Source: Allolobophora icterica (Eukaryota > Annelida > Clitellata > Crassiclitellata > Lumbricidae). Taken from it: a stretch of DNA of 64,000 nucleotides. Under the pieces are notes generated by a model that saw only the letters and a list, made by a program, of their open reading frames with translations, was not told where the DNA came from and did not search any database. A program made the translations under genes and the position numbers. Where the stretch lies: positions 46,347,546-46,411,545 of the forward strand of contig OY744613.1 in NCBI GenBank assembly GCA_963556255.1. Direction: 5' to 3'. Positions 28,386 to 54,715 of the stretch are shown here, in pieces (position 1 is the stretch's first letter; each line of letters opens with the position of its first letter).

Positions 28386-28686
28386 GCTAAAACCGTAGTT
28401 TACGTTGCTAAATTGAGTGGCTGGAAATTCGTATTTTACGTTGCTAAAATCTACCAGGTTAGGTCTAATACCACGTATGAAAACTGTTTCATAGTAAAAC
28501 TAGTAGTTGGATTATTGATGAAAGTACTACTGAAACTAGAAGTGGGATGAGCCATGAAAATATTTCATATTTAATCAAACTGGAAGTTGGATGATCAGCA
28601 ACGTCAAGGCCATTGCATTACTTTAGCAACGTACACAACGGGCCTGAAAACAGGTTGAATTTAGCAACGCAAACTACGGTTTTACC
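28386..28686. mobile_element. Small foldback element with AGAAG(C/T)TGGAT core
   Basis: The ends read TAAAACCGTAGTTTACGTTG and, inverted, TAAAACCGTAGTTTGCGTTG. The word TTTACGTTGCTAAA is repeated twice in each arm. Between the arms are three to four copies of ACTAGAAGTTGGATGA..GATGAAAA, the core unit that recurs at 39-62 kb. The right end finishes GGTTTTACC, and AAAAAACA occurs at the right edge (28687-28694) and 2 bp before the left edge (28376-28383). This could be an eroded 8-bp duplication. Confidence 0.65.
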
Positions 28687-39546: not shown

Positions 39547-39961
39547 GGTAATCTTGGCTTATAGCGTCTGAAATTATGTACATTGAAACGTTATAATACA
39601 ATAAATAATCATGGTTCATCTAACTTCTAGTTTCAGTTATATTTGATATCGATCATCCAGCTTCCAGTTTGAGTAATATTTTCATCAATATTCCAACTTC
39701 TAGTTTGAGTTTTACTATGAAATATTTTCATCGCTCATCCACACCAAATCCACGATTATGATATCGGCGCTTAAAGTATCTAATTTAATCACATTTCCAA
39801 CTTCTAGTTTGAGTTTTATTATATAATATGTTCATCGATCATTCAGCTCTAGTTTCAGTAACATTTTCATAAATCTTCCAACTTGTAGTTTGAGTTTACT
39901 AAGAAGTGTTTCATCGCTCATGCAATGTAAATTATTTCAGAGCTAAAGGCCAAGATTACCT
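39547..39961. mobile_element. GGTA-type foldback/MITE, subfamily with TTTAGCG arms
   Basis: The left end GGTAATCTTGGCTTATAGCG and the inverted right end GGTAATCTTGGCCTTTAGC are mirrored. The word ACATTTAT flanks it (39539-39546 and 39962-39969), with one extra T at the right junction. The interior is repeats of the core unit read in reverse (CATC.AGCTTCTAGTTT...ATTTTCATCG). Confidence 0.8.
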
Positions 39962-43649: not shown

Positions 43650-44150
43650 CAATTCAAAGGACATTAAATAATTATGTGTTGTTGTTTTACCATTTTCTAC
43701 ATCACAGTTGCATTCGTGTAAAGTTAGAAATCCTAGAGTGCAAGAGTTCAACCATCAGGCCTTACCAATGTTAAAAACGTAAACTTTTCAGATGTAGGTT
43801 TATTGTAAACTTTAATTTGTAAATTCATTGCTAAAATGTGTGACAAACAGACAAATCGGGGTGCCTATGTACTACCTGGGTGGGTGTCTGCATCGTGATA
43901 GTCGGTTAGGGTCAGGGTAAGCGTCGTGAGGGTCGGTTAGGGTTAGGGTCAGTGTAGCCTATGTATTTGTGCGACTGAAAAAGCTATACCTGCGAGTGGA
44001 AGCTGGATTTTAAAATTGAGGCACCCCGATTGTACATGATCGCCACAGAATATTAAAACAACATGTATTCGAAATTAGCAAAGCGAAAGGAAAATGGTAA
44101 ATGTGTATTTTAGCGTATTACATTATACACTTCCATTGAAACTTTATAAT
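43650..44150. other. Upstream flank of the zinc-finger exon, no further gene
   Basis: Contains a G-rich patch at 43905-43960 with GGTTAGGGTTAGGGTCA, two telomere-like hexamers that are probably coincidental. No coding frame recognised. Confidence 0.4.
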
Positions 44151-44156
44151 ACTTTG

Positions 44157-44395
44157 TGGGGCGTGATGGCTCAGTGGTAAGTTCGGCGTCTTGTGACCGG
44201 AGGGTTGCCGGTTCGAATCCCACTCTAGCCGCTGCGTACGGACCATGGGCAAGTCCTTCACTCGCAATTGCTCGTGGCGCTTCGGCATGAAAATTCTGGC
44301 ACAGTATCAAATGCTGTAGACGGGAGCGCCTCTGAGTAGTAATTGACTTCGAGAGGCGCTATAGAAATATCCGGAATAAATAAATTAAATAAGTA
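44157..44395 (+). mobile_element. Full-length tRNA-derived SINE with a LINE-like 3' stem
   Basis: A box TGGCTCAGTGGTAAG (about 44167) and a perfect B box GGTTCGAATCC (44210-44220) form an internal Pol III promoter. The body ends in GGGAGCGCCTCTGAGTAGT...CGAGAGGCGCTATAGAAAT and an A/T-rich tail (AATAAATAAATT). The 3' stem is shared with the LINEs of this window, so it probably uses their reverse transcriptase. Confidence 0.88.
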
Positions 44396-44404
44396 AATAC
44401 AAAA

Positions 44405-44660
44405 AATAATAATCGTTCATCCAACTCCTAGTTTCAGTTATATGTGCATCGATCTTCCAGCTTCAAGTTTGAGCTATAGTTTCATCGACCATCCAACTTC
44501 TAGTTTCAGTTTTAGTATGAAATGTTTTCATCGCTCATCCAGGGCAATAATTTTGGCACTAAAACGATATATTTTCATCGCAATTCCAACTTCTAGTTTG
44601 ACTGTTATTATGTTACATGCTCATCAATCATCCAACTTCTAGTTTGAGTTTTATATCATA
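44405..44660. repeat. Core-unit array (foldback family fragment)
   Basis: Five or six reverse-oriented core units (CATCCAACTTCTAGTTTGAG...TTTCATCG) directly after the SINE tail. No arms are recognisable on either side. Confidence 0.75.
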
Positions 44661-44890
44661 ATTGCTCGATAATATATGAATTTAAAACGCTAAACTACAC
44701 TTTAACCAGGAAAATTACGAATGAAAGACAATTAATGTAATCGGATAACTAGTTAAAAGCAGATGACTACAAAAAGTAGTCATAAAGCTGACAACGCAAA
44801 GCCTTCAACCTTTTGGATCTAGTCAAAACAGTGTCTAGACTAAAAAATCCCCCGCGTCACTACAACTATGAAGCATAAGTAACAAAATGA

Positions 44891-45136
44891 GGTAATGTTT
44901 GTCTTTAGCGTCCGAAATTATTTTCATTCAAACGTTCTAATACAATATACAATAATACAATAAATAATCATCGTTCATCCAACTTCTAGTTTCAGTTATA
45001 TTTTAATCGATTATCCAGCTTCTAGTTTCCTGAATATTTTCATCAATCTTCCAACTTCTTCTTTGAGTTTAACTGTGAAACGTTTTCATCGCTCATGCAA
45101 TGTAAATAATTTCGGACGCTAAAGACAAACATTACC
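44891..45136. mobile_element. GGTA-type foldback element, complete short copy (246 bp)
   Basis: Perfect 8-bp duplication CAAAATGA (44883-44890 and 45137-45144). The mirrored ends are GGTAATGTTTGTCTTTAGCG, continuing to TCCGAAATTATTT. Three reverse-oriented core units lie between. It is the cleanest short member and defines the family boundaries. Confidence 0.9.
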
Positions 45137-45776: not shown

Positions 45777-46430
45777 GGTAAACGTACGTTTTAGCGTAAT
45801 TAATTATTGGACGAAATGTCCACGTTCGCTTTAGCGTAATTAATTATTGGAAGCTGTATGAGCGATGAAAATACAAATCAAACTGGAAGCTGGATTAGCG
45901 ATGAACATATACGTCAAACTGGAAGCTGGATTAGCGATGAAAATGGAGATCAAACGAGAAGCTGGATGTGCAAAGAAGGTAATCCTCCACGTTACGTGCG
46001 TTCATTATATGTATGCCTACACTCTTATAGTGGATAGTTATCAGCAATTGTGATGACTGATGAAAATATAACTCAAACTAGAAGTTGGATGATTGATGAA
46101 AATAGTATTGAAACTAGAAGCTGGATAAATGATGAAAATATTACATAATAAGTCGGAAACTAGAAGTTCGAATTGCGATGAAACTATAATCGTTTAACGC
46201 CGATATCATTGCCGTGGATGAGCGATGAAAACATTTCTTAGTGTAAAACTTCAAATAGAAGCTGGATTTGCGATGAAAATGAGCTAAAAGTGGAAGCTGG
46301 ATGGATGAACGATTAAAACGTGTAATATTAAAGTAAACTAGAAGCTGGAAGGTAGATTAAATAATTATTTACGCTATTCATTTTTCCGAAATCCTGCCAA
46401 TAATTAATTACGCTAAAGCGTACGTTTACC
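45777..46430 (+). mobile_element. GGTA-type element, subfamily GGTAAACGTACG, copy A (654 bp)
   Basis: Perfect 8-bp duplication ACGTCCAT (45769-45776 and 46431-46438). The mirrored ends are GGTAAACGTACGTTTTAGCG and GGTAAACGTACGCTTTAGCG, continuing through TTAATTATTGG. The left arm carries the TTTAGCGTAATTAATTATTGG word twice. The interior is core units (CTAGAAGCTGGAT.AGCGATGAAAAT) plus a unique ATCCTCCACGTTA.GTGCGTT segment shared with copies B and C. Non-coding. Confidence 0.92.
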
Positions 46431-50189: not shown

Positions 50190-50448
50190 TTCGGGATACG
50201 GAAATTTCGCCCCCGGAAGAATCGTCCCCGAGGAAGTTTCGCCTCCGGGATCTATGATGAAAATGTGACTAAGACTAGAAGCTGGATTAGCGATGAAAAT
50301 GTAAGTAGAAGACTAGAAACTGGATCTATGATGAAAATGTAACTAAGACTAGAAGCTGGATCGACGGGGGCGAAACTTCCGGGGGGCGAAATGTCGGGGG
50401 CGAATCTTCCGGGGGCGAATCTTCCGGGGGCGAGAAGTCCTAGAATCC
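50190..50448. mobile_element. Small foldback element with GGGGGCGAAACTTCC arms
   Basis: The left arm has TTTCGCCCCCGGAAGAATCG and AGTTTCGCCTCCGG. The right arm has GGGGGCGAAACTTCCGG, GGGGGCGAATCTTCCGG (twice) and related copies, that is, the inverse. Two to three core units (GACTAGAAGCTGGAT.AGCGATGAAAATG) sit between. No target duplication resolved. Confidence 0.7.
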
Positions 50449-50765
50449 AATTTTCATGCAGTGGCGCCACACTCCCCATTCAATCCTACTGTTCCTTAGA
50501 GACCATGTGAAATCAAGGTACAATGAGCGTAAATGGATTGCTTAACCTTCACGCTGGAAAGGTTGTTAACGACGGGGATATATAATTTAAATATTTATGG
50601 GATTATTAGCAATTATTTAAAATAAGACTGCTGATAATTTTTTCTATGCGCTTAGAATAGAGTTGCTCTAGCCCTTTAAATGCATTCGCCAGATGACAGA
50701 ACAGACATTGTAAAATTCCAGCTTACTTTTCATTTCGTAAAAAAGTTTAGATCGATCGCCATTTT

Positions 50766-53700
50766 GGTAGAACTCGGTATTTACTGGGGCGCTGCTAGTG
50801 TAACCAAATTTTACCTGGTGATACCTGGCATCGAAACTAGTCGAACGCAACTATTCCCGACTGCGAATAACGATCCGACGATTTTCTACGAATTTTTAAA
50901 GTTTCCGTGAAACACACTACAAATCTGTCTATCTCGCCATATTTACACATACCGTATATCCCGAAAGTTATGACACGAATATCTCGGCAACGATAAATTT
51001 TATAGCGCATTACTTTGTTATAGCGCATTACTTTGTACAGTGACTATTAATAAAAATATTTTACTTTATATAATATTTACTATTACCACTTAAGAAAGGT
51101 CAACTCTATTGATTATGTGACCAATGTGAATTATTATTATTAGCAATGTTACTTTTCCTGTAAAATAATTATCATGGTGATGTTACTGTCAATAAATGTT
51201 CCTGCAATTGTTATTGCTATTGTTTATTGTTCTAAATTGATGTTATTGTTAAGGAATGGATTGTCCTAATGTAATATATCTGTGTAGGCTGGTTCCACGA
51301 CAAAAGGTTCACGACAAATGGTTCACCGACAAAATGGTTCACGGACAAAAGGTTCACGACAAATGGTTCACGACAAAAGGTTCACGACAAATGGTTCACG
51401 GACAAAAGGTTCACCGACAAAAGGTTCACAGGCGAAAGGATAACGATATTCCAGCTTCTAGGTTGAGCGATATTTTCATTGGTTTCATATCATTTTCATC
51501 GCTCTTCCAGCTTCTTGTTTCAGCTCATTTTCGTCGCTCATCCAGCTTTTAGTTTAATCTACGACATAAGTTCATCGCTCATCCAGCTTCTAGTTTTAAG
51601 CGTTAATACGACATATTTTCATCGCCCTTCCAGCTTCTAGTTCTAAGCGTTAATACGACACCTTTTCATCGCCCTTCCAGCTTCGACTTTTAATGCTAAT
51701 AGGACATATTTTCATCGCCCTTCCAGCTACTAGTTTAATTTACATTTTAATCGTTCATCCCGATTCCAGTTTAATTTACATTTTAATCGTTGATCCCGCT
51801 TCCAGTTTAATTTACATTTTTATCGTTCATCCCGCTTCCAGTCTAATTTACATTTCTATCGTTCATCCCGCTGCTAGTTTAATAAACATTTTAATCATTC
51901 ATCCCGCTCCTCGTTTAATTAACATTTTAATCGTCATCCCGATCCTAGTTTAATTAACATTTTAGTAGTTCATCCCGCTCCTATTTTAATTTACATTTTA
52001 ATCGCTGATCCCGCTTCCTGTTTAATTAACTTTTTAATCGTTCATCCCGCTACTAGTTTAATTAACATTTTAATCGTCATCCCGTTTCTAGTTTAATTTA
52101 CATTTTAATCGTCATCCCGCTCCTACTATAATTAACTTTTTAATCGTTCGTCCCACTCTCAGTTAAATTAAACTAAGAGCGGGATTAACGATTAAAATGT
52201 TAGTTAAACTAGGAGCGGGATGAACCATTAAACAGTTAGTCTAACTAGTAGCGGGATGAACCCTTAAAAAGTTAATTAAACTGGAAGCGGGATCAACGAC
52301 TAAAAAGTTAATTCAACAGGAAGCGGGATCAACGATTAAAATATGATTAAAATAGGAGCGGGATGAACTGTTAAAATGTTAATTAAACTAGAAGCGGGAT
52401 GAACCGTTAAAAAGTTAATTAAACTGGAAGCGGGATGAACCGTTAAAAAGTTAATTAAACTAGCAGCGGGATGAATGATTAAAATGTTATTTAAACTAGC
52501 AGCGGGATGAACGACTAAAAAGTTAATTAAACTAGGGTCGGGATGACGATGAAAATGTTAATTAAACCAGGAGCGGCATGAACGATTAAAAAGTTAATTA
52601 AACTGGAAGCGGGCGAACGATTATAATGTTAATTAAACTGGTAGCGGGATGACGATTAAAATCTAAATTAAATTGGAAGCGGGACGAACGATTAAAATAT
52701 AAATTAAACTAGTAGCGGAATGAACGATAGAAATGTAAATTAGACTGGAAGCGGGATGAACGATAAAAATGTAAATTAAACTGGAAGCGGGATCAATGAT
52801 TAAAATGTAAATTAAACTGGAAGCGGGATGAACGACTAAAATGTAAATTAAACTACAAGCTGGAAGGGCGATGAAAATATGTCGTATTAACGCTTAGAAC
52901 AAGAAGCTAGAAGGGCGATGAAAATATGTCGTATTAACGCATAAAAACTAGAAGCTGGATGAGCGATGAAAATGTGTCATATTAACGCTTAGAACTAGAA
53001 GTTGGAAGGGCGATGTAAATGTTTCGAATTAACGCTTCGAACTAGAAGCTGGAAGGGCGATGAAAAATGTCGTATTAACGCTTAGAACTAGAAGCTGGAA
53101 GGGCGATGAAAAATGTCGTATTAACGCTTAGAACTAGAAGCTGGAAGGGCGATGAAAATATGTCGTATTAACGCTTAAAACTAGAAGCTGGATGAGCGAT
53201 GAACTTATGTCGTAGATTAAACTAAAAGCTGGATGAGCGACGAAAATGAGCTGAAACAAGAAGCTGGAAGAGCGATGAAAATGATATGAAACCAATGAAA
53301 ATATCGCTCAACCTAGAAGCTGGAATATCGTTATCCTTTCGCCTGTGAACCTTTTGTCGGTGAACCTTTTGTCCGTGAACCATTTGTCGTGAACCTTTTG
53401 TCGTGAACCATTTGTCGTGAACCTTTTGTCGGTGAACCTTTTGTCCGTAAACCTTTTGTCGTGACACCTGGTTCATCGTAGTTATTATCATACAGCACGA
53501 CATACAGATTTTTTAAAATATAAGTAATATAGTGACCATTTGCATATTTATTTTTCCTACAGTATTATGTGCAGCTTTATTAATGGTCATTTACAATGTA
53601 ATGCGCTATAACAAAGTAATGCGCTATAAAATTTATCGTGATAACCACCACGTCTACAGTATTATGTGCAGCTTTATTAATGGTCATTGTACAATGTAAT

Positions 53701-53961
53701 GCGCTATAACAAAGTAATGCGCTATAAAATTTATCGTTGCCGAGATATTCGTGTCATAACTTTCGGGATATACGGTATGTGTAAATATGGCGAGATAGAC
53801 CGATTTGTAGTGTGTTTCACGGAAACTTTAGAAATTCGTAGAAAATCGTCGGATCGTTATTCGCAGTCGGGAATAGTTGCGTTCGACTAGTTTCGATGCC
53901 AGGTATCACCAGGTAAAATTTGGTTACACTAGCAGCGCCCCAGTAAATACCGAGTTCTACC
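50766..53961. mobile_element. Giant foldback element (3.2-kb near-palindrome)
   Basis: Perfect 8-bp duplication GCCATTTT (50758-50765 and 53962-53969) and mirrored ends GGTAGAACTCGGTATTTACT. Reading inwards, each arm has about 280 bp of near-identical unique inverted sequence (to about 51045; from about 53675), a unique spacer, a tandem GGTTCACGACAAA array (51297-51430; 53340-53470), and a long array of core units of about 34-48 bp. The arms meet at a 6-bp loop near 52165-52170, flanked by CTCTCAGTT and AACTAAGAG. The left arm is about 1.4 kb and the right about 1.8 kb. The open frames inside both arms are repeat artefacts, and no transposase is present. It must be mobilised in trans, if at all. 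Confidence 0.9.
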
Positions 53962-54111
53962 GCCATTTTGTCCTGATGACAGTTTAAACCAGATTATGGA
54001 GAAGAATCGACTCTAATGCCGAGCAGGGTGAGATTATATAACTATGTGCATATAATTTAGTGGATTATAACATTTAATAAACGACAGTTAGGACAATTAG
54101 AGTCCTGATAT

Positions 54112-54715
54112 GGTAAACGTACGTTTTAGCGTATTTAATTATTGGACGAAATGTCCACGTTCGCTTTAGCGTATTTAATTATTGGAAGCTGTATGAGCGA
54201 TGAAAATAGAAATCAAACTGGAAGCTGGCTAAGCGATGTAAATGGAGATCAAACGAGAAGCTGGATGTGCGAAGAAGGTAATCCTCCACGTTAGGTGCGT
54301 TAATTATATGTACACTCTTATAGTGGATAGTTATCAGCAATTGTGATAACTGATGAAAATATAACTCAAACTAGAAGCTGGATAAAAATATTATTGAAAC
54401 TAGAAGCTGGATAAATGATGAAAATATTACATAATAAAACGGAAACTAGAAGACTTTGGAATTGCGATGAAACTATATCGTTTAACGCCGATATCATTGC
54501 CGTGGATGAGCGATGAAAACATTAAAGTAAAACTTGAAATAGAAGCTGGATATGCGATGAAAATGAGCTAAAACTGGAAGCTGGACGATTGAAAGATTAA
54601 AACGTATAATATTAAACTAAACTAAAAGCTGGAAGATGGATGAAATAATTATTTACGCTATTAATTTTTTTCGAAATCCTCCCAATAATTAAATACGCTA
54701 AAGCGTACGTTTACC
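54112..54715 (+). mobile_element. GGTA-type element, subfamily GGTAAACGTACG, copy B (604 bp)
   Basis: Perfect 8-bp duplication CCTGATAT (54104-54111 and 54716-54723). The ends and inner segments are the same as copy A at 45777-46430, with a slightly different number of core units. It contains the intact site TCGTTTAACGCCGATATC (about 54479). Confidence 0.92.

Follow-up and report, generated by a model that had tools for sequence, protein, structure and literature searches.

A composite foldback element with two pairs of ends in Allolobophora icterica and its coding Mutator-like relatives

Architecture of the element

We analysed a stretch of 64,000 nucleotides from the genome of the annelid Allolobophora icterica (C13:46347546-46411545 of the 1.118-Gb source assembly GCA_963556255.1, contig OY744613.1; the window in the following) and, within it, a 3.2-kb foldback element at positions 50766-53961. 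The window is of animal-like character, containing C2H2 zinc-finger genes and a weak reverse-transcriptase match that lies below the Pfam cut-off. The element has exact GGTAGAACTCGG ends, at 50766 and at 53961, and is flanked on both sides by the 8-bp sequence GCCATTTT, as had been described in an earlier interpretation made from the letters of the window (referred to as the sequence-only reading). The features of the locus are as follows:

50758..50765, unstranded: left target site duplication GCCATTTT, directly abutting the element
50766..51054, + strand: outer terminal inverted repeat, L end (GGTAGAACTCGG...), 98.3% identical to the R end
51055..51290, + strand: L spacer (spL), 236 bp, with no mirror counterpart
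51291..53468, unstranded: inner module GGTTCCACGACAAAAGG ... CCTTTTGTCGTGACACC, both end variants being those of a coding foldback Mutator-like element (MULE)
51291..51429, + strand: left short tandem array of 13-15-bp units, GGTTCACGACAAA and variants
51430..52164, - strand: left arm of 35/36/47-bp units
52165..52170, unstranded: palindrome centre, the mirror alignment being centred on 52168
52171..53344, + strand: right arm, the longer of the two, of 36/47-bp units
53345..53468, - strand: right short tandem array of 13-15-bp units, inverted
53469..53672, - strand: R spacer (spR), variable, in which the inner end of the terminal repeat is present once more; not mirrored with spL
53673..53961, - strand: outer terminal inverted repeat, R end, 289 bp, 98.3% identical to the L end
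53962..53969, unstranded: right target site duplication GCCATTTT, directly abutting the element

The sequence-only reading had treated the whole region as one inverted structure. This is true of the 289-bp terminal repeats and of the inverted arrays, with GGTTCACGACAAA tandem arrays present in both arms, as it had reported, and with the 36/47-bp unit arrays reversing their orientation near 52168. It is not true of the spacers (51055-51290 and 53469-53672), which show no mutual alignment beyond scattered bases, and the arms are of unequal length, with inner arrays that are 80-83% alike in mirror register, so that the palindrome is imperfect. The predicted single-strand DNA folding energy of the element is nevertheless far beyond chance, at -1293.7 kcal/mol, whereas 12 dinucleotide shuffles average -332.3 (sd 10.2), and 286 base pairs of the predicted fold connect the two terminal repeats. 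Long inverted arms with internal repeats that fold back on each other place the element in the foldback group. Among the open frames of the window copy no transposase frame was found. To this extent the sequence-only reading, which had reported no transposase, was right about the window copy itself, but coding relatives exist elsewhere in the genome (see below).

Copies in the genome

A search of the genome with the first 280 bases of the element returned 56 matches (40 of 215 candidates scored). The 40 full-length matches represent the window element and 26 further loci, all of which were fetched, and the copy number is to be read as a lower bound. Twenty-three loci including the window are two-ended, two of them (L031 and L036) with one end cut down to 36 and 107 bases respectively; among the remainder, L022 has four ends and L026, L029 and L030 have one end only.

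An exact 8-bp duplication, different in every case, flanks 19 of the 23 two-ended loci, one further locus (L019) has a 10-bp duplication, CATGATTAAC, and the flanks of L014, L027 and L031 contain no matching duplication. Exact duplications of some length are thus found at 20 of the 23, which is what mobility as a unit implies for a foldback. The many copies with different duplications bear out the proposal of the sequence-only reading that the foldback moved as a whole. Its companion expectation, that the ends of other copies would coincide with GGTAGAAC and an 8-bp duplication, held at the 19 loci and failed at the one with 10 bp and the three with none. In 21 copies, the first 224 bp of the 42 ends show a mean difference of 0.41% and a maximum of 1.8%, and 283 of the 861 end pairs are identical; this set omits L022, L031 and L036, in which an end is incomplete or compound. 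Since 19 of the 23 two-ended loci have exact and mutually different 8-bp duplications, the composite is a real, young transposon, and its insertions are recent.

The copies have a consistent polarity. One L and one R end were labelled at 18 of the 23 two-ended loci and two R ends at the other five, two of which (L019 and L035) nonetheless contain spL. Of 20 other copies, 17 contain this spacer in full length with an identity of 97.1-99.6%, L019 has it in two pieces, and L013 and L014 lack it. Both spacers, and the terminal repeat at three of its positions, differ consistently between L and R over many loci. Unit counts and lengths, on the other hand, vary across the 16 complete copies, with 8-34 units in the left arm, 5-32 in the right and a total length of 2,195 to 3,723 bp; the arms therefore lengthen and shorten while the ends stay almost constant.

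Some copies are unusual. The loci with mismatched flanks (L014, L027 and L031) may be exchange products between copies and resemble the chimeric copies of Galileo (PMC3573991; here and below, published systems are compared as described in the accessible parts of the cited papers). At L022 (C1:71424654-71428644), two element copies, the second one shortened, lie 54 bp apart, with their duplications in inverted order (GCACCTTT ... GCGTTTGC / AAAGGTGC ... GCAAACGC). This is the signature of a local inversion, which may have come about by recombination between copies or by intramolecular transposition. Finally, the copy at L019 (C2:15384887-15392663) is swollen to 7.2 kb by other insertions. It was considered as an autonomous copy and dropped, its middle consisting of these insertions, without a clear transposase.

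Coding Mutator-like relatives

At least 150 matches to the MULE domain are present in the genome (150 of 402 candidates scored), and 30 of these loci were fetched, each with 1.5 kb to either side. GGTA/GGTT ends together with 8-9-bp duplications occur at 14 of the 30, which makes Mutator the natural home of GGTA-type ends in this genome. One fetched locus, L051, has the foldback core beside the transposase and was the starting point for reading outward.

The coding foldback MULE at C9:854154-863546 is 9,393 bp long and is bounded by the exact 9-bp duplication CTTCTTTAC. It starts with GGTGTCACGACAAAAGG, finishes with the inverse of GGTTCCACGACAAAAGG and contains 60 + 51 units in inverted arms, spaced mostly at 46 and 35 bp. 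Between the arms lies an open frame of 498 aa with FLYWCH and MULE domains, whose motifs MDGTF, MLDFERA and DNEVEGFH we take to be catalytic. The element also contains a frame of 133 aa with C2H2 fingers; over 124-150 bases, its nucleotide identity to zinc-finger genes of the window is about 78%. The C2H2 frame was seen downstream of the transposase at L068:2671-3069 and L069:5691-6089, one copy lacking a finger cysteine.

A second coding locus, C20, is 98% identical to C9 over the 4.3-kb middle, and the two transposase frames differ in 5 of 498 residues. Its left arm extends beyond 8 kb, and the locus was read without reaching the far end. Both copies have the N-terminal FLYWCH finger and the MULE domain that characterize Phantom (Pfam bit scores for MULE and FLYWCH of 57 and 37.2 in C20, and of 53.4 and 37.2 in C9). 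A protein search of the genome yielded these two full-length transposase copies along with broken or partial ones at 55-95%, and the next intact family follows at 36%; the coding element is therefore rare. Among the matches listed, the best named relative of the transposase is from Arctopsyche grandis, at 61%.

Other structures were encountered near or among these loci. At about 4140-4300 of L071 (C9:866340-866500) there is a further degenerate short array (GGTTCACGGACAAATGG...) with two adjoining arm units and no outer repeat, which may be what is left of another element of the inner type. At L048, L050, L053, L054, L056-L060 and L062-L066 there are compact MULEs, about 2.3-2.6 kb long, whose ends are GGTATCC/GGTTTAC or GGTAACC/GGTTTAC and whose duplications measure 8-9 bp; the many loci with equal score and frame length suggest that they have been recently active. 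A DUF7869 element was rejected as a partner of the foldback, its 33-bp ends being unrelated, its flanks being 6-bp ATCGAT and no arm unit being present.

Proposed origin of the two layers

Both end variants of the coding element are found in the window element, one at 51291 and the other at 53468. The junctions at these positions recur in the other loci, the L junction in 22 of 26 (one with a single-base change) and the R junction in 21 of 26. Because the end variants are identical and the junctions recur, the segment 51291-53468 would be a non-autonomous derivative of a Phantom/Tm1-like coding foldback MULE that has lost its middle. As for membership among MULEs, a MULE-type transposase lies between the same inner ends in the coding element, and the duplications fall within the 8-11 bp of MULEs (8 bp at 19 and 10 bp at one of the 23 two-ended loci, 9 bp in the coding element), a range that is not exclusive to them. 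Neither the outer repeat nor its spacers found a match in the two coding loci (C9 and C20). The 289-bp GGTAGAACTCGG repeats are a second pair of ends, and as it is these that the young 8-bp duplications flank, the composite moves by them.

According to our analysis, the element is probably a non-autonomous, recently active foldback DNA transposon of two layers, an inner, deleted Phantom/Tm1-like MULE and outer GGTAGAACTCGG ends by which it is now mobilised. The coding form has short arrays at its ends, a FLYWCH+MULE transposase, a zinc-finger frame and long arms in inverted orientation made of 46/35-bp units, and loss of its middle would have brought the two arms together as a palindrome. A cut-and-paste transposase, most likely that of another MULE, would act on the outer 289-bp ends and generate the 8-bp duplications, and use of these ends would spread the entire palindrome as a single unit. 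The numbers of arm units change between copies, most likely through slippage or unequal exchange. The units themselves may act as extra binding sites, by analogy with Galileo, the arms of which contain multiple transposase-binding sites (PMC3688188).

A number of observations weigh against this scenario. The outer repeat is absent from the 30 fetched MULE loci within their 1.5-kb reach, distant ends being out of view. Within the shell, the inner module is not flanked by a separate duplication (GTGTAGGCT vs TGGTTCATC), and no empty shell was found, as 0 of 40 scored matches (63 candidates) span a joined shell junction; either the capture is old and recombined, or the outer ends were added in another way. 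GCGGGAT units account for 3 of 111 units in the coding copy, compared with 23 of the 49 counted units in the window copy, so that a different copy, or one since lost, may be the direct coding parent. Three of the 26 loci (L013, L014 and L031) have neither junction, and in L013 the short array begins in a different, mirrored context. The 9-bp duplication of the coding element comes from one copy (C9), and the GGTTCC end lies on opposite sides of the transposase frame in C20 and C9 (L068 vs L069+L071), a pattern that a flip of the middle between the inverted arms would produce. Moreover, the 126 kb of fetched loci also contain pairs with CAG or TAGGG ends that have exact 8-bp duplications but lack the arm unit, for which reason an 8-bp duplication by itself is no marker of the GGTA group.

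The absence of an empty shell and of an inner duplication, together with the recurring junctions, would also be expected if shell and module had always moved together as a single element, that is, a MULE with added outer terminal repeats. MULEs with multiple terminal repeats have been published from plants (PMC3310237). However, the short array is where the coding element at C9 terminates, and its 9-bp duplication, which is exact, adjoins it immediately; different sequences follow the GGTTCC ends of C9 and C20, and the two coding loci lack a match to the outer repeat or the spacers. We consider a single element unlikely, though deserving of serious attention.

More speculative, and in our view unlikely, is a matryoshka transposon, in which a palindromic Mutator foldback would have been captured between unrelated GGTA ends and would thereby have gained a second mobilising enzyme. 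The 36/46-bp arm unit would then have a function common to several elements, such as the docking of MULE or zinc-finger proteins, and would have been retained in all of them while their ends turned over, and the zinc-finger protein of the coding element could recognise it. If this were true, local inversions of the L022 type would be products of replicative, hairpin-assisted transposition.

Duplications of 8 bp are also made by the P, hAT and Merlin superfamilies, P elements proper among them, and the outer ends could belong to one of these superfamilies, which would then mobilise the composite. The CAG-ended elements with 8-bp duplications in this genome, which we take to be hAT-like, are compatible with this possibility, as is the foldback architecture of Galileo within the P superfamily (PMC3573991). 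It is rather improbable given that GGTA/GGTT ends with 8-9-bp duplications characterize nearly half, 14 of 30, of the fetched MULE loci.

The sequence-only reading had named an arm produced by faulty assembly as a possible refutation, in which case one arm would be a false mirror copy. Inverted stretches of this length without a single difference (at least 300 bp) can mislead assemblers, and the element is known from the assembly alone, but the worry is answered by the further copies, the two distinct spacers, the unequal arms, the L/R differences recurring over chromosomes, three positions of the terminal repeat among them, and the 19 different exact 8-bp duplications, which already contradict an artefact and make it very improbable. 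A local minisatellite expansion with chance flanking repeats, suggested by the abundance of the 36-bp unit in the window (55 copies outside the element), is contradicted by the exact ends and duplications at many loci and by the location of the unit outside the foldback, mostly within elements having their own ends and duplications, and has next to no probability.

Comparison with known systems

The two-layer transposon that we favour belongs to a known kind, the Mutator/Foldback elements, and its closest described system is Tm1 of root-knot nematodes, with a FLYWCH+MULE transposase of 496 aa (PMC3169594). Both systems have 13-15-bp tandem units in composite terminal repeats; Tm1 makes mostly 9-bp duplications, like the 9 bp of the coding element, and its non-coding derivatives are more numerous than the coding one, as here (PMC3169594). 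In contrast, Tm1-A measures about 2.6 kb, compared with 9.4 kb for the present coding element with its arms of 46/35-bp units and C2H2 frame, and an outer shell with a second pair of ends is not among the Tm1 features described in the accessible part of the paper (PMC3169594). The Tm1 motifs CGGTTAA / CCTACCC and its 14-bp motif, as far as given there, do not occur in the ends found here (GGTTCCACG / GGTGTCACG), and the unit sequence differs, in a comparison made by eye. The Phantom group of MULEs, to which proteins of this type are assigned, shares the FLYWCH+MULE protein, duplications of 8-10 bp and animal hosts (PMC6446971; PMC3169594). The likeness to Phantom is one of domain content, and the nested shell is an extra feature of the present element.

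Tetris of Drosophila virilis resembles the element in its foldback arms with internal tandem repeats and in its 8-10-bp duplications, and also in sharing a terminal sequence with a small element, DAIBAM (PMC4079207). Tetris has no known coding partner according to the accessible text, whereas this genome contains a coding element whose arms are of like kind; the same paper names a sea urchin foldback (PMC4079207). Galileo of Drosophila has long repetitive ends of variable length and chimeric copies with mismatched flanks (PMC3573991), but, from what is available of its description, a P-type transposase and 7-bp duplications, compared with 8 bp here. The comparison with Drosophila FB and Galileo drawn by the sequence-only reading is apt for the architecture in the case of FB; it does not extend to kinship of the inner layer with Galileo, the coding relatives being of the FLYWCH+MULE type. 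TU elements of sea urchins are likewise foldbacks with an 8-bp duplication, a likeness by description and not by sequence. For a mobile Mutator-like element with more than one pair of ends, the plant MULEs with multiple terminal repeats come closest (PMC3310237); their extra repeats, however, are mostly in tandem, whereas here no similarity was seen between outer and inner ends.

No published description of this family was recognised in literature that is not searchable by sequence, and an entry in a repeat library is possible. In the viral collection, two patterns each hit a single contig, and neither of these loci matched the window in blastn at E 1e-3 (L002 of that search was read in part, L001 not), and two patterns matched none. 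Pattern searches of bacterial and archaeal genome contigs gave no match; blastn gave 9 phage records with matches of at most 47 bases and no plasmid record.

Within its kind the element stands out by its nested ends, by an arm unit that other elements share and by the presence of a coding element with like arms in the same genome. Foldback elements are often found without a transposase. With non-coding palindromes, small elements containing the arm unit and a coding element with an open frame in one genome, the steps from coding element to palindrome to composite become testable. The spread of a 3-kb palindrome also bears on the persistence of hairpins and inversions in animal chromosomes.

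The arm unit in other elements of the window

The sequence-only reading had overlooked the two-layer appearance of the element, its unmirrored spacers and the fact that the arm unit, of roughly 36 bp, recurs in further elements of the window. Six smaller elements contain the unit; all have GGTA-type ends, and four are flanked by an exact duplication of 8 bp:

E1, 44891..45136, - strand: GGTAATGTTTGT ends, duplication CAAAATGA, arm unit present
E2, 45777..46430, + strand: GGTAAACGTACG ends, duplication ACGTCCAT, arm unit present
E3, 54112..54715, + strand: family of E2, duplication CCTGATAT, arm unit present
E4, 28386..28686, + strand: ends GCTAAAACC / GGTAAAACC, duplication AAAACACA/AAAAAACA with one mismatch, arm unit present
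E5, 44096..44707, - strand: ends GGTAAATG/GGTTAAAG, duplication AGGAAAAT, arm unit present
E6, 39547..39960, - strand: GGTAATCTTGGC ends, 9-bp duplication with one mismatch, arm unit present

A strict blind scan of the window, which required an exact 8-bp duplication and a 12-bp inverted repeat within 6 kb, returned 15 hits; a single microsatellite at 6.2-7.1 kb accounts for 11 of them. The other four are E1, E2, E3 and the foldback, all of which begin with GGTA and contain the arm unit. For duplications of 6, 7, 8, 9 and 10 bp, the strict scan gave 42, 2, 15, 1 and 5 hits and a looser scan 81, 35, 13, 3 and 5, many of the latter within arrays or shifted element copies; on six simulated sequences the looser scan gave 2-4 hits at 8 bp. 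Nine of its 13 hits at 8 bp, as well as cluster-scan hits with summed mismatches of 5-6, were judged to be chance or shifted copies. E4, E5 and E6, in which ends or duplications are less perfect, were added by the looser scans.

The cores of E1-E6 align to the foldback arms with E values of about 1e-10 to 1e-50. In E1, E2, E3 and E5, GGTAA and a variable stretch are followed by TTTAGCG, of which E6 has a variant, and the foldback ends have in common with these small elements only GGTA and a TTTA farther in. A small mirrored cluster at 50190-50448 of the window, in which 36-bp units lie between inverted 15-bp CGGGGGCGAAACTTC arrays with CAATTTTC on both sides (by eye), is possibly another foldback with a short array of its own.

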